A stretch of 34,120 nt of DNA. Origin: Planctomycetota bacterium. GTDB taxonomy: Bacteria > Planctomycetota > Phycisphaerae > Phycisphaerales > SM1A02. How positions within the stretch are numbered: the stretch's first letter is position 1; each line of letters opens with the position of its first letter. Of the stretch, positions 16,633 to 33,435 are shown in pieces. The position numbers and the translations under genes are program-made. The stretch spans positions 1 to 34,120 of the forward strand of contig JADFNO010000019.1 in the NCBI GenBank assembly GCA_022563315.1, in the 5' to 3' direction. The notes beneath the pieces are model-generated. The model saw only the letters and a program-made list of their open reading frames with translations. It was not told the DNA's origin and searched no databases.

Positions 16633-19600
16633 TCATCGGTTCTTCGCCGCCTCTTGTGCAGATCCCGCTTGTGCCTGGACCGTCTGGATATCGAGCGCGT
16701 CTTGGGAGCGGCCGGGCTCGTGGCTTGGAAAGTAATCCTGCAGCGCAGCCACCGACCACGCCCCCGCCCGCAGAGCCACGATCGCCTTGACCACCGCGTT
16801 AGCGCCCGTGATGGTGGTGATCATCGGCACCCCAGCTCGAACCGCGGTGGCTCGAATCTTCCCCTCGTCGGTGTGAGCGCCCTTTCGCGTCGGCGTGTTG
16901 ATGATGAGGTGAATCTCGCGGTTGGCGATCTTGTCCAGAATGTTCGGACGCGCCCCCTCCGAGATCTTCCGCAGCAGGACTGTGTCCACCGAGTATTCAT
17001 GCAGAAGCTCGTGCGTGCCCTTGGTCGTGAAGACTGTGAACCCCAGCGACACCAACGTCCGCGTGAACTGTACGCAATGCGATTTGTCGGAATCTCGCAC
17101 CGATAGAAAGACGTTGCCCTGCGTCGGCAGCTCGATTCCGGCCCCCATCTGCGCCTTCGCCAGGGCGATGTGAAGTGATCGATCCATGCCCATTACTTCC
17201 CCGGTCGAGCGCATCTCAGGGCCGAGGATCACATCCACCCCCGGAAATCGCGCGAAGGGAAAGACCGACTCTTTCACCGAGAAGAACCCCGCATCCGGGA
17301 TTTCCTTCACGCCAAGCTCCGTCAGCGACGCGCCCATCATCACCTTCGCCGCGACGCGGGCCCACGACTGGCCTTTGGCTTTCGAGACGAACGGCACCGT
17401 GCGCGAGGCCCGTGGGTTCACTTCCAGGATATAGACCTCGTCGTTCTTGACCGCCATCTGCACGTTCATCAAGCCGCGGACCTTGAGGCGCTCCGCCAAG
17501 CGACGCGCAATGTCCTTGATCTGATCGACCACTACCGGTCGAAGCGAGTAGGGCGGGATCGTGCACGCCGAGTCGCCGGAGTGAATCCCCGCTTCCTCGA
17601 TGTGCTCCATCACCCCGCAGATCAGCGCTCGTGGCTCGTACTCCGACCCCTCCGTGCCTTCGTGCCTCCGTGCCTCTGTGCCTTCCCCAAAATCCCCCAC
17701 CACATCGACATCGACTTCGATCGCTTCCGAGAGGAACCGGTCGATGAGCACCGGCGCATCGGCCAGGTCGGACACATCGACGGCGGTGCGCATGTATCGC
17801 CGCAGTGACACTTCGTCGAAGCAGGTTTCCATCCCGCGCCCACCCAGGACATAGCTCGGGCGAACCAGCACCGGATACCCGATTCGAGTCGCCACACTGA
17901 CCGCCTCGTCCAGCGAATAGGCGATGCCGTTGTACGGCTGGGTCATCCCCAGTTCTTCAAGCATCACCTTGAACCGATCTCGATCCTCCGCCAAGTCGAT
18001 CGAATCCAGGGCCGTGCCGATGAGGGGAACACCCGCGGCCACGAGGCCGTGCGCGAGGTTCAGCGGCGTCTGCCCGCCGAACTGCACAATGCAGCCCGCC
18101 ACCTTGCCGCTTCGATCCGGGACGTCGATCCCCCCGCCGTTGAGCCGCTCGACCACGTTCAGCGTATCTTCCAGCGTCAACGGCTCGAAGAACAGGAGGT
18201 CCGATGTGTCGTAATCCGTGCTCACCGTCTCCGGATTCGAGTTGATCATCACCGACTCGAATCCCATTTCCCGGCAGGCGAACGCAGCCTGGCAGCAGCA
18301 GTAGTCAAACTCGATGCCCTGGCCGATGCGGTTCGGCCCGCCCCCGAGGATGATGATCTTGCGGCGATCGGTGACGCGGATTTCATCCTCGCAGACAACG
18401 CCGGGCAAGCCCGGGGCTATATATGGTGTTTCGTACGTCGAGTAGTAGTACGGCGTCAGGGCTTCGAACTCGGCGGCGCAGGTGTCCACCAGCTTGTACA
18501 CCGGCTCGATCTTGAGACGCTTGCGGTGATCGCGGACTTGCAGAATCGTGTCCGTCGAAATCCCATCGAGATACACATACGCCAACTGCGGATCGGAATA
18601 GCCCAACTGCTTGGCTTTGAACAAGACGTCGCGGGGCAGATCGTCGAGTCGCTCATATAAGAAAAGCTCGTCCTCGAACTCGACGAGTTGCTGGATCTGA
18701 TCCAAGAACCACGGGTCGATGTGCGTCAAGGCCGCGATGCGGTCGATCGACCATCCCATCTTCATCGCGTAGCGGACGAAGTAGAGCCGGCCCTGGCTCG
18801 GGACGCTGAGCTTGCGCATCAGCGTTTCCTCGGGAATGGGCCAGACGACTCTGGAACCATCGGCGGCGACGAGGGGATCGGATTCAGTCGGCCCAACCCG
18901 GGCGGCGGCTCGTTTGGCCAAGAGCCAATGATCGTTGCGATCCAGCCCCAACCCGAAGCGCTTTACCTCCATGGACCGGATCGCCTTTTGCAGGCTCTCC
19001 TTGAATGTTCGGCCGATGCTCATCGCCTCGCCGACCGATTTCATCTGCGTGGTAAGGGTCTCGTCGGCTTCGGGGAACTTCTCGAAGGTCCAGCGCGGCA
19101 TCTTGGTGACGACGTAGTCGATCGACGGCTCAAAGCACGCGCTGGTCGTGCCCGTGACATCGTTCCGCAGCTCGTCCAGCGTGTACCCCACCGCGAGCTT
19201 GGCCGCGATGCGGGCGATGGGGAACCCCGTGGCCTTGGACGCCAGGGCGGAGCTGCGCGACACGCGCGGATTCATCTCGACGACGACCATCTCGCCGTCG
19301 CGCGGGTTGACGGCAAACTGGACGTTGGAGCCGCCCGTATCGACGCCGATCGCTCGCATGATGGCGATCGCCGCGTCTCGCATTCGTTGGTATTCCTTGT
19401 CCGTCAACGTCTGGATTGGGGCCACGGTGATCGAGTCGCCCGTATGGACGCCCATCGCGTCGATATTCTCGATGCCGCAGACAATCACACAGTTGTCCTT
19501 GCGGTCGCGAACGACTTCCAGCTCGAACTCCTTCCACCCGATGACGGACTGATCGATCTCGATCTGGCCGATCATGGAGGCGTCGATCCCACGCTGGACC

Positions 19601-20187
19601 AGGTCCTCAAATTCGTCGCGGTTGTAGGCGATGCCGCCGCCGGCCCCCCCCATCGTGAACGCGGGGCGGAGGATCACGGGCAGACCGATCTCGTCAAGAA
19701 ACCGCCAGGCTTCGTCCAGATTGGTCACCGTCAGCGCCCGTGGCAGCCGCAGGCCGATCGACTTGATCACCGCGATGAACTTCTCGCGATTCTCGGCCCG
19801 GTCGATCGCCTCCCGCGTGGCCCCGATCATCTCGATCCCGAACTTCGCCAAGGTCCCGTCGTCATACAACGCACAAGCGGTGTTCAAGGCGATCTGGCCG
19901 CCCAGGGTCGGCAGCAGGGCATCGATCGGTGTGCCGTTGGCCTTCTCCTTGGCGATGATCTTGGTGACCGCTTCGAGCGTGATCGGCTCGATGTACGTGC
20001 GGTCGGAGAACTCCGGGTCGGTCATGATCGTCGCTGGGTTGGAGTTGACCAGCACGATGCGGTAGCCGTCCTCCCGCAAGGCCTTGCACGCCTGGGTCCC
20101 TGAATAGTCAAACTCACAGGCCTGGCCAATGATAATCGGCCCGGAACCCAGGATCAGAATCGTGCTGATGTCATCGCGTCGGGGCAT
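16633..20187 (-). CDS. carB: Carbamoyl-phosphate synthase large subunit
   Basis: CarB makes carbamoyl phosphate from bicarbonate, two ATP and ammonia passed from CarA, for arginine and pyrimidine synthesis. The 1184-residue protein has the duplicated layout: a first synthetase half starting [19 protein letters not shown] with the ATP-grasp box [12 protein letters not shown], a central oligomerisation region, a second half starting [19 protein letters not shown] with ATP-grasp box [11 protein letters not shown], and a C-terminal MGS-like allosteric domain (about 1030-1170). It is about 110 residues longer than the E. coli protein. Part of the excess is an insertion near residues 834-851 of the second ATP-grasp domain ([18 protein letters not shown]), encoded by a tandem 8-bp repeat where E. 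coli has only a few residues. All main motifs are intact. carA is not in the window. TATTGT lies about 30 nt before the ATG. Confidence 0.97.
17649..17680. repeat. Four tandem 8-bp units inserted in frame in carB
   Basis: On plus the sequence is four units of CCTYYGTG in a row (CCTCCGTG, CCTTCGTG, CCTCCGTG, CCTCTGTG); on the coding strand the unit is CACRRAGG. Because 8 is not a multiple of 3, the units are read in different frames, giving the low-complexity peptide EARRHEGTE. Aligned from memory with E. coli CarB, the surrounding protein is conserved on both sides (DVDVVGD before, ALICGVMEH after), so the repeat sits in a surface loop of the second ATP-grasp domain. Confidence 0.8.
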
Positions 20188-31019: not shown

Positions 31020-32321
31020 TCACGCCTCCGTCAACAGTCGCCGCACCCAAACGGCGTACATCACGGCCATCGCCAGGAGTATGGCCCCGACCGCCTGGTG
31101 AGCTGTCGTCACCACAACTTCCAGCGTGGGGATCGCCTCGCCTTGCGGGCGCGCCTCAGTAGGCACGATGATGAACGAGGCAATGCCAAGCAACACTTGC
31201 AATCCGACGGTGTGAACCATCCCCTTTCCAACCCGCTTAATGGTTCGTTGGTTCGCATACAACCCCCAGGCGCGCACGCCGCAAAAGAGAACCAGCGCCA
31301 GGACCAACAACGAGCCAACAAAAGAATGGCCGTGCAGCAAGCCCATCCGCAGACCGGGCGGAATGTCCGGTAGCGGTTGAATATGACGAAACCACGTACC
31401 GAGTGTGAGCTGCAACACGATCGCCGCGACCAACACGGCGCTGATGGTTCGATCCGTCTTGGCGGTCTTGGCTACGAAAGGTTCCTCGCCGCTGAGCCAC
31501 GTTTTCGACGTCGCCATCGCGATCACGATGAGCAACGCGAAAAATGCTTGTGCGACTACGCCATGCACGACGCCAAGGAACACGCTGCTTTCAGTGACGC
31601 GTGTGCCGCCAAGCACGCCCTGAATGATCACAACCGCCACGGCGCCAATGACAAGCCACCGAAGCCAACGACGACGATCGACACGCCATACCTGGATCGC
31701 CAACACGATCGTGGTGAGTCCAACCAGCAGACCCCACAGCCGATGCGTGTGCTCTGCAAACGAGCCGATGTCGCGTTGCATCATTGTCAGTGGAAAGAGA
31801 ACCATCGGATAACCGTTGGAGGTGAGCCAGCCTTCGACGGCCATGCCGGCCTCAAGTCCGGTCACGATCCCGCCAGCGATCATCAGCAGCAGTGTCGTCA
31901 CGGCCGTGAGCAGGGCAAACCGCATCGTCCAGTTGATTTGGGCCGGTTCAGCCGGCGCTGAGCGCGAACCCGCGGCTGCGCCGAGCGTGCACAGCCCAAC
32001 GGCCGCGGCCAGAAACCCGCCGATCCACCACAGCCCGGCAACGACGACCTCGCCCGGCTCCCTGCCTCCGAGCATGCTCAGGAGGATCAGCAGGTTCAGG
32101 CTGGTCACGAGTAGCCCCAGCCATACGCCGCCCCGCCAATCGCGACCCGTTTTCCGTGCCAGCCCATACCCAGCCGCGAACAACCACCCGGCCAGCACAA
32201 CTGCCGCCAGCCACATCGGGACAAGACCCAGGGGCATGGCCGCGACATACAGGATCACCCACATCACGACGGTCGTGCTGAAGCCGATCGTCAGAATGTC
32301 GCCGCCACGCTTGTTGGCCAT
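31020..32321 (-). CDS. ctaA: Heme A synthase (COX15/CtaA family)
   Basis: This membrane enzyme oxidises the methyl group of heme O to give heme A for cytochrome oxidase. The 433-residue product has the COX15 core from about residue 135: AGGIVTGLEAGMAVEGW, the EHTHRLWG box with paired His, VVHGVVAQ, LLHGHSFVG and TTAHQAVGA, which together give the four heme-ligand His positions of the two half-domains. Before the core are four extra hydrophobic helices (about 10-125) not found in the Bacillus-type enzyme. ATG 32321 (MANKRGGDILTIGFS) is chosen since the open frame upstream is Ser/Arg-rich and crosses the promoter region and the divergent ctaB. A small membrane-protein gene follows in the same operon. 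CtaB, which makes its substrate, lies divergently 94 bp away. Confidence 0.92.
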   Translation of the reverse strand: MANKRGGDILTIGFSTTVVMWVILYVAAMPLGLVPMWLAAVVLAGWLFAAGYGLARKTGRDWRGGVWLGLLVTSLNLLILLSMLGGREPGEVVVAGLWWIGGFLAAAVGLCTLGAAAGSRSAPAEPAQINWTMRFALLTAVTTLLLMIAGGIVTGLEAGMAVEGWLTSNGYPMVLFPLTMMQRDIGSFAEHTHRLWGLLVGLTTIVLAIQVWRVDRRRWLRWLVIGAVAVVIIQGVLGGTRVTESSVFLGVVHGVVAQAFFALLIVIAMATSKTWLSGEEPFVAKTAKTDRTISAVLVAAIVLQLTLGTWFRHIQPLPDIPPGLRMGLLHGHSFVGSLLVLALVLFCGVRAWGLYANQRTIKRVGKGMVHTVGLQVLLGIASFIIVPTEARPQGEAIPTLEVVVTTAHQAVGAILLAMAVMYAVWVRRLLTEA

Positions 32322-32379
32322 GTTTTCGCCTGCCGCCGGCCGTTTGGCCCGATTGATCCCGTTCATCCGATTGGAGCGA

Positions 32380-32385
32380 TATACT
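32380..32385 (+). promoter_or_regulatory. -10 candidate TATACT upstream of ctaB
   Basis: TATACT lies 30 nt before the ctaB GTG (32416). On the opposite strand the complement of 32381-32386 reads TAGTAT, a -10 candidate for ctaA. Both would be covered or flanked by the CRP-like palindrome at 32387-32402. No strong -35 is seen for either direction. Confidence 0.4.
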
Positions 32386-32386
32386 A

Positions 32387-32402
32387 TGTGACGAAAATCA
32401 CA
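32387..32402. promoter_or_regulatory. Perfect CRP-type palindrome TGTGA-N6-TCACA between ctaA and ctaB
   Basis: The 16-bp site TGTGACGAAAATCACA matches the CRP/FNR-superfamily consensus TGTGA-N6-TCACA at all ten defined positions. It lies between divergent heme A and heme O synthase genes, 14 bp before the ctaB GTG and next to overlapping -10 candidates for both directions. In that position a bound protein would more likely repress than activate. The regulator is not in the window. Confidence 0.6.
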
Positions 32403-32415
32403 AACACCACCGCCC

Positions 32416-33435
32416 GTGCCTGCTTCTATCCTCCAATCTTCATTCCCCGACGCCCTGCTCGCTGACGACCCGCGGCCGAGCGGTGTACGTTCGCTGGCTC
32501 GCCGGCTACCCGCACTGTACATGCAGCTTACCAAGGCCCGGCTCAGCGCGCTGGTCGTGGTCACGACCGCGGTCGGTTTCATCATGGCCTCGGCGGGATC
32601 AATCGACTGGCTGAGATTGCTGTGGACGGTGTTGGGGACAACCCTCGCCGCCGGCGGCGCCAGTGCGTTCAATCAACTGGCGGAGGTTCGACGTGACGGC
32701 TTGATGTCGCGCACCTGCAACCGACCGCTTCCCTCGGGCGCGATGAGTCTCACGCACAGCTTCGTCTTCGCCATGCTCCTGGCATTTGGCGGAATAGCCG
32801 GCCTGATGGTGATGGTAAATCTTGCAGCGGCCGGCTTGGCGCTGCTGACATTACTCATTTACCTCTTCGCCTATACGCCGCTGAAGACCCGCACCAGTCT
32901 GAACACGCTTGTGGGCGCGATCTGCGGGGCTATCCCGCCGATGATCGGCTGGGTCGCTGCCACCGGTAGGCTGGACTATGGCGCTTGGATCCTCGCCCTG
33001 TTGCTATTCGTGTGGCAGATTCCGCATTTCCTTGCCCTGGCCTGGCTGTATCGCAAGGACTACGAGCGCGGCGGGTTTGTCATGCTTCCGGTGATCGATC
33101 CCTCAGGGCGGCTCACCGGGCGTGTGGTTGTGCTCATGACGCTTGTGCTGCTTCCCTTGGGAGTCGCGGCCGCACTGTCGGGCTTGGCGGGCTGGCTCTA
33201 TACGTTCGGCTCCGTCGCCCTGGGATTGTGGATGCTTCGGCTGGGACTACGCCTGAACGCACAACGTTCCGATTCCAATGCGCGTCGCGTGTTTGTGGCC
33301 AGCCTCGTCTATCTACCCGCTTTGCTGTGCCTGATGGTCATCGACCGCGGACCGGCCGCCACCGGGGACGACGTTCCACACCTTGGGGTCCTTGCCGCGG
33401 TCACGAGCGACCTCGACGACATCGCAGGGCAATGA
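32416..33435 (+). CDS. ctaB: Protoheme IX farnesyltransferase (heme O synthase)
   Basis: CtaB attaches a farnesyl group to protoheme to make heme O, the substrate of heme A synthase. The 339-residue protein is a UbiA-superfamily membrane prenyltransferase with about eight or nine helices. The first prenyl-diphosphate motif is NQLAEVRRDGLMSRTCNRPL, in which the usual Asp is Glu (NxxxE...D), a form also seen in the mitochondrial COX10 type; the second motif region is YRKDYERGGFVMLPV. The GTG start at 32416 gives a 30-residue hydrophilic N-terminus before the first conserved block LYMQLTKARLSALV. It is divergent from ctaA with a shared CRP-like site. Its stop overlaps the ATG of the next gene by 4 bp (ATGA), so they are coupled. 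Confidence 0.93.
   Translation: MPASILQSSFPDALLADDPRPSGVRSLARRLPALYMQLTKARLSALVVVTTAVGFIMASAGSIDWLRLLWTVLGTTLAAGGASAFNQLAEVRRDGLMSRTCNRPLPSGAMSLTHSFVFAMLLAFGGIAGLMVMVNLAAAGLALLTLLIYLFAYTPLKTRTSLNTLVGAICGAIPPMIGWVAATGRLDYGAWILALLLFVWQIPHFLALAWLYRKDYERGGFVMLPVIDPSGRLTGRVVVLMTLVLLPLGVAAALSGLAGWLYTFGSVALGLWMLRLGLRLNAQRSDSNARRVFVASLVYLPALLCLMVIDRGPAATGDDVPHLGVLAAVTSDLDDIAGQ

Follow-up and report, generated by a model that had tools for sequence, protein, structure and literature searches.

A perfect CRP-type palindrome between divergent heme A and heme O synthase genes of a Planctomycetota bacterium is probably a Rex operator

Rex is a repressor that senses cellular NADH, and its classical operator is TTGTGAA-N4-TTCACAA. 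In Firmicutes and Thermotogales, Rex mainly controls fermentation and anaerobic respiration; the main comparative study of the family is reportedly that of Ravcheev et al. 2012. The literature that we searched, whose coverage misses many journals, yielded no paper on Rex in Planctomycetota (Planctomycetes). The Streptomyces Rex regulon includes cydABCD, nuo, atp, and rex-hemACD, and in Streptomyces avermitilis Rex footprints cover ATGTGAACGCGTTCACAA at cydA1, TTGTGACCTGCTTCACAT at nuoA1, and TTGTGATACGGTTCACGA at atpI (PMC5355995). In the DNA-bound structure of Thermotoga maritima Rex (7WB3), Arg48 and Lys49 make base contacts within the half-site, and Tyr100 forms a stacking interaction with the nicotinamide (PMC8836258). 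In bacterial promoters, a -10 element shared by the two strands can drive transcription in both directions (PMC12825309).

The stretch of DNA analyzed here (34,120 nucleotides; hereafter, the window) belongs to a member of the Phycisphaerae (genome G000) and carries two divergent genes of heme biosynthesis. The COX15-type heme A synthase gene ctaA occupies positions 31020–32321 of the minus strand (PF02628, E = 2e-11), and the heme O synthase gene ctaB, which encodes a UbiA protein, occupies positions 32416–33435 of the plus strand, starting with GTG at 32416 (TIGR01473, 282 bits against a cut-off of 210). We place the ctaA start at the ATG at 32321, because a second in-frame candidate, the ATG at 32366, is missing from a close relative (L014). 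The intergenic gap is therefore 94 bp long, and both its length and the identity of its neighbors agree with an earlier reading made from the sequence alone (the sequence-only reading). Elsewhere in the window, carB (16633–20187), the gene of the large carbamoyl-phosphate synthase subunit, contains a short, repeat-derived in-frame insertion on the minus strand (17647–17685) that encodes 13 residues and looks like an intragenic dispersed repeat.

Within the ctaA–ctaB gap, TGTGACGAAAATCACA (32387–32402) matches TGTGAN6TCACA at all ten consensus bases, as the sequence-only reading had noted, and TATACTATG (32380–32388) abuts it directly upstream. No other match with up to one mismatch occurs in the window; shuffled windows contain 0.75 such matches on average. 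The longer ATGTGACGAAAATCACAA (32386–32403, without strand assignment), our putative Rex operator, agrees with TTGTGA-N6-TCACAA at eleven of twelve positions and with TTGTGAA-N4-TTCACAA, whose spacing is identical, at 11 of 14; the bases flanking its center are C...A, where the classical Rex consensus has A...T. A position weight matrix (PWM) trained on sites at other promoters gives it a score of 19.4, compared to 4.9 for the next best site in the window. Under an order-1 model, 0.024 perfect TGTGAN6TCACA matches are expected per window (close to the 0.03 estimated earlier) and 7e-5 in the 94-bp gap. The same model predicts about 2.7 matches in the 3.76-Mb genome, in which three are observed; TTGTGAN6TCACAA occurs twice against 0.11 expected. 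The genome-wide count of TGTGAN6TCACA is thus weak evidence and the position of the site is strong evidence, and because about 2.7 chance matches are expected per genome, our main argument is conservation.

To compare gaps, 80 loci encoding relatives of CtaB were fetched. Nine of them (L013, L014, L017, L018, L020, L021, L022, L033, and L034), each from a different genome, have a perfect TGTGAN6TCACA at the same place in a divergent ctaA–ctaB gap, and in every case it is directly preceded by TA[CG]TA, giving the block TA[CG]TATGTGA-N6-TCACAA. CtaB of L013 and L014 is 97 per cent identical to that of the window; in the other seven loci the identity is 57–67 per cent, and the DNA flanking the operator has diverged. 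PWM scores are bimodal (16–22 in the nine operator loci and below 4 in the other ctaB upstream regions examined), and across the conserved operators the half-sites are invariant and the spacer is variable. The comparison of gaps, which the sequence-only reading had proposed, confirms at the level of sequence conservation that the palindrome is a real operator. The divergent arrangement itself is much more widespread than the operator, which is missing from the divergent gaps of three genomes that do encode Rex (L015, L036, and L078). Among 298 genomes of the class, TASTATGTGAN6TCACA was found only in G000 and in G261; the latter genome is Rex-negative, and its match lies away from ctaB and is probably due to chance.

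The sequence-only reading had also pointed to -10 candidates abutting the site, and these are present. On the plus strand, TATACT (32380–32385) or TACTAT (32382–32387) may serve ctaB and belongs to the conserved TA[CG]TATG; on the minus strand, the overlapping TAGTAT (32381–32386) may serve ctaA. The underlying motif ATASTAT is its own reverse complement, which suggests a symmetric, bidirectional -10 element common to both genes. In a promoter scan, no -35/-10 pair passed and no matching -35 was found. TASTATG is kept upstream of ctaB in four relatives without the palindrome (L015, L023, L036, and L078), with 0.009 occurrences of TA[CG]TATG expected per 350 bp of background. Because it persists without the operator, TASTATG resembles the promoter itself, and the palindrome an operator added to it. 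The described bidirectional promoters likewise have overlapping -10 elements on both strands of a divergent gap (PMC12825309); the locus studied here differs from them in the adjacent putative Rex site, whose regulatory role we infer from sequence.

These observations bear on two explanations that dispense with a DNA-binding regulator. A functionless chance match would accord with the three genomic occurrences against about 2.7 expected, but it would have to fall by accident into a gap where 7e-5 are expected and to recur at the same place in genomes whose ctaB is only 57–67 per cent identical; we regard this as next to negligible. It is also very improbable, though less so, that the conserved block is a core promoter or RNA element, with a palindrome that is incidental or forms a hairpin in the leader RNA of ctaB. 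The retention of TASTATG without the palindrome would fit such an element, and a 5-bp stem is possible in the transcript. However, invariant half-sites around a variable spacer, with no compensatory changes, are the pattern of a protein-binding site, and the same palindrome precedes unrelated respiratory operons that lack TASTATG.

If a protein reads the site, the question is which one. The sequence-only reading had named a CRP/FNR-family regulator (CRP, an HcpR-like protein, or similar), and the half-sites and spacing are indeed identical to those of Escherichia coli CRP sites. We nevertheless consider such a regulator improbable, because a profile search of G000 finds no match to the CRP helix PF00325, the helix-turn-helix (HTH) of its only Crp-like protein (L009) scores below threshold (16 bits against a cut-off of 27), and eight operator-bearing genomes (G255, G302, G303, G321, G322, G325, G331, and G332) have no PF00027 protein. 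L009, whose helix reads ...YLGIAPETLSRIR, does not have the CRP-like RETxxR helix and was not seen in two genomes of the same genus that keep the operator (85 and 66 per cent complete). Canonical CRP is thus absent from G000 and from relatives carrying the site, and what the sequence-only reading had named as refuting it, a genome with no CRP-type regulator, is largely what we observe. The only other PF00027 protein of G000 is a cyclic-nucleotide/4Fe-4S (ferredoxin) fusion without an HTH. The search of G000 and its relatives with PF00325, PF13545, and PF00027 led us to reject CRP/FNR as the reader. The discarded candidates include a PF13545 match on contig C56 (L004), which lacks a cyclic-nucleotide domain and looks like another kind of winged-helix protein, and a 600-aa protein with multiple cNMP domains that co-occurs with the sites and is a cNMP/4Fe-4S fusion with no HTH. 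Fusions of this kind, in which two to three cyclic-nucleotide-binding domains are joined to a DmsB-like 4Fe-4S domain and an HTH is again lacking, neighbor multihaem cytochrome or membrane genes on contig C222 of G000 (L010) and, as homologs, in L128, L130, L135, L137, and L138.

Rex fits better. G000 encodes a Rex protein of 219 aa on contig C46 (L143; PF06971, E = 1e-18) that exceeds the cut-offs of two NCBIfam models (NF003995, 263 bits against 126; NF003993, 252 bits against 217) and aligns over its full length with solved Rex structures (5zz5 and 7wb3). In this alignment, the equivalents of Arg48, Lys49, the wing glycines (Gly61), and Tyr100 are kept, as is the GxGNxG loop (GAGNIG); Lys43, Ser52, and Arg60 differ, the latter two being variable in the family. 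Among 41 relatives, perfect TTGTGAN6TCACAA sites occur in 11 of 28 genomes with Rex and in none of 13 without it (Fisher P-value = 0.007, with genomes counted as independent of phylogeny), and a reversed control pattern gives a single site in the 41 genomes. Rex is present in G000 and in eight of the nine metagenome-assembled genomes (MAGs) with the ctaA–ctaB operator; in the ninth, the 2.5-Mb MAG of L034, no Rex match was found. We dropped an apparent co-loss of Rex and the atpD site within one genus (G172 versus G107 and G315) as an argument, because G172, Rex-negative by HMM, keeps a site with one mismatch at atpD.

Sites with at most one mismatch to the Rex-like pattern also lie at other promoters. 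Specifically, they are found upstream of nuoG (L211, in G000), nuoB (L111, G060), ATP synthase genes (L221, G167), and atpD (L103 and L104, G107 and G315), between nuoI and ATP synthase genes (L220, G331), and upstream of an ActA/ActB-like pair (L105, G060) of cytochrome c and TAT-variant molybdopterin oxidoreductase genes, which by sequence resembles alternative complex III. A search for further sites near nuo and cox genes, as the sequence-only reading had proposed, thus succeeds for nuo; for a cox operon of G000, and likewise for its rex gene, no site was seen in the 96 per cent complete draft of 298 contigs. ResB behind a site at L095 received no confirmation from Pfam or NCBIfam and was set aside. 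A porin gene has a site in G000 and G298, and a perfect TTGTGAN6TCACAA (G000, contig C234, 33225–33242; L108) lies between ndk and an RpoD-like (sigma-70 family) gene, inside an inverted repeat with 11-bp arms (CAAGATTGTGA..TCACAATCTTG). The ndk/sigma-factor site recurs in L096, L201, L227, and L109 and is conserved across several genera; sigma-factor and porin targets are not obviously related to respiration or redox. Two genera share a Rex-like site with the same neighbors (G000, contig C246, position 2950, L213; G307, contig C21, position 133310, L107), a lipoprotein gene before it and a gene for an uncharacterized secreted protein (..DWS..WESARQGD) after it.

This putative regulon has the operator spacing and half-sites of the Streptomyces one, along with respiratory and heme targets and an operator overlapping core promoters, and both the functional classes and a one-sided T-to-A variant match the footprinted S. 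avermitilis sites (PMC5355995). Unlike in Streptomyces, the putative targets include ctaA and ctaB (heme A and O) and the alternative-complex-III-like locus, in Planctomycetota, and no rex autoregulation site is seen. With Firmicutes and Thermotogales the system has in common an operator of the TTGTGAA-N4-TTCACAA type and an NAD(H)-binding Rex with an Arg/Lys helix, but the putative targets here are components of the aerobic chain.

Operator spacing, an encoded Rex with conserved contact residues, co-occurrence of sites with Rex, and respiratory targets are all as expected of a Rex regulon, so that the regulator family should probably be changed from CRP/FNR to Rex. Our preferred reading, to which we give a probability of roughly 85 per cent, is that the palindrome is an NADH-responsive Rex operator that co-represses ctaA and ctaB. 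It is a prediction from sequence that Rex binds the site, that it represses both promoters, that these share a -10 element, and that the system responds to NADH. At a low NADH/NAD+ ratio, a Rex dimer would bind the palindrome and, because the operator adjoins -10 elements that overlap and could serve either direction, would block RNA polymerase for both genes; the geometry proposed earlier for two-way repression thus stands, with the repression itself predicted. By the established behavior of Rex, this joint repression would be relieved as NADH rises: build-up under limitation of oxygen or another electron acceptor would release Rex, and heme A synthesis would increase together with other respiratory operons (nuo, atp, and possibly alternative complex III). 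The idea of a switch on oxidase cofactor supply is likewise retained, given conservation in the same ctaA–ctaB arrangement, as putative control.

More tentatively, at somewhat below even odds, one Rex operator with a symmetric -10 may co-switch the heme A and heme O synthases in Phycisphaerae-like Planctomycetota, where Rex may govern the aerobic chain in general (complex I, alternative complex III, and ATP synthase) as well as a sigma factor gene. The Rex reading would give Planctomycetota a concrete NADH-responsive circuit for respiration and would carry an established type of respiratory control into a phylum that has received little study. It would also mean that Rex can be the reader of a perfect CRP box and that annotation by consensus alone may misassign the regulator, because CRP and Rex sites have their half-sites and spacing in common.
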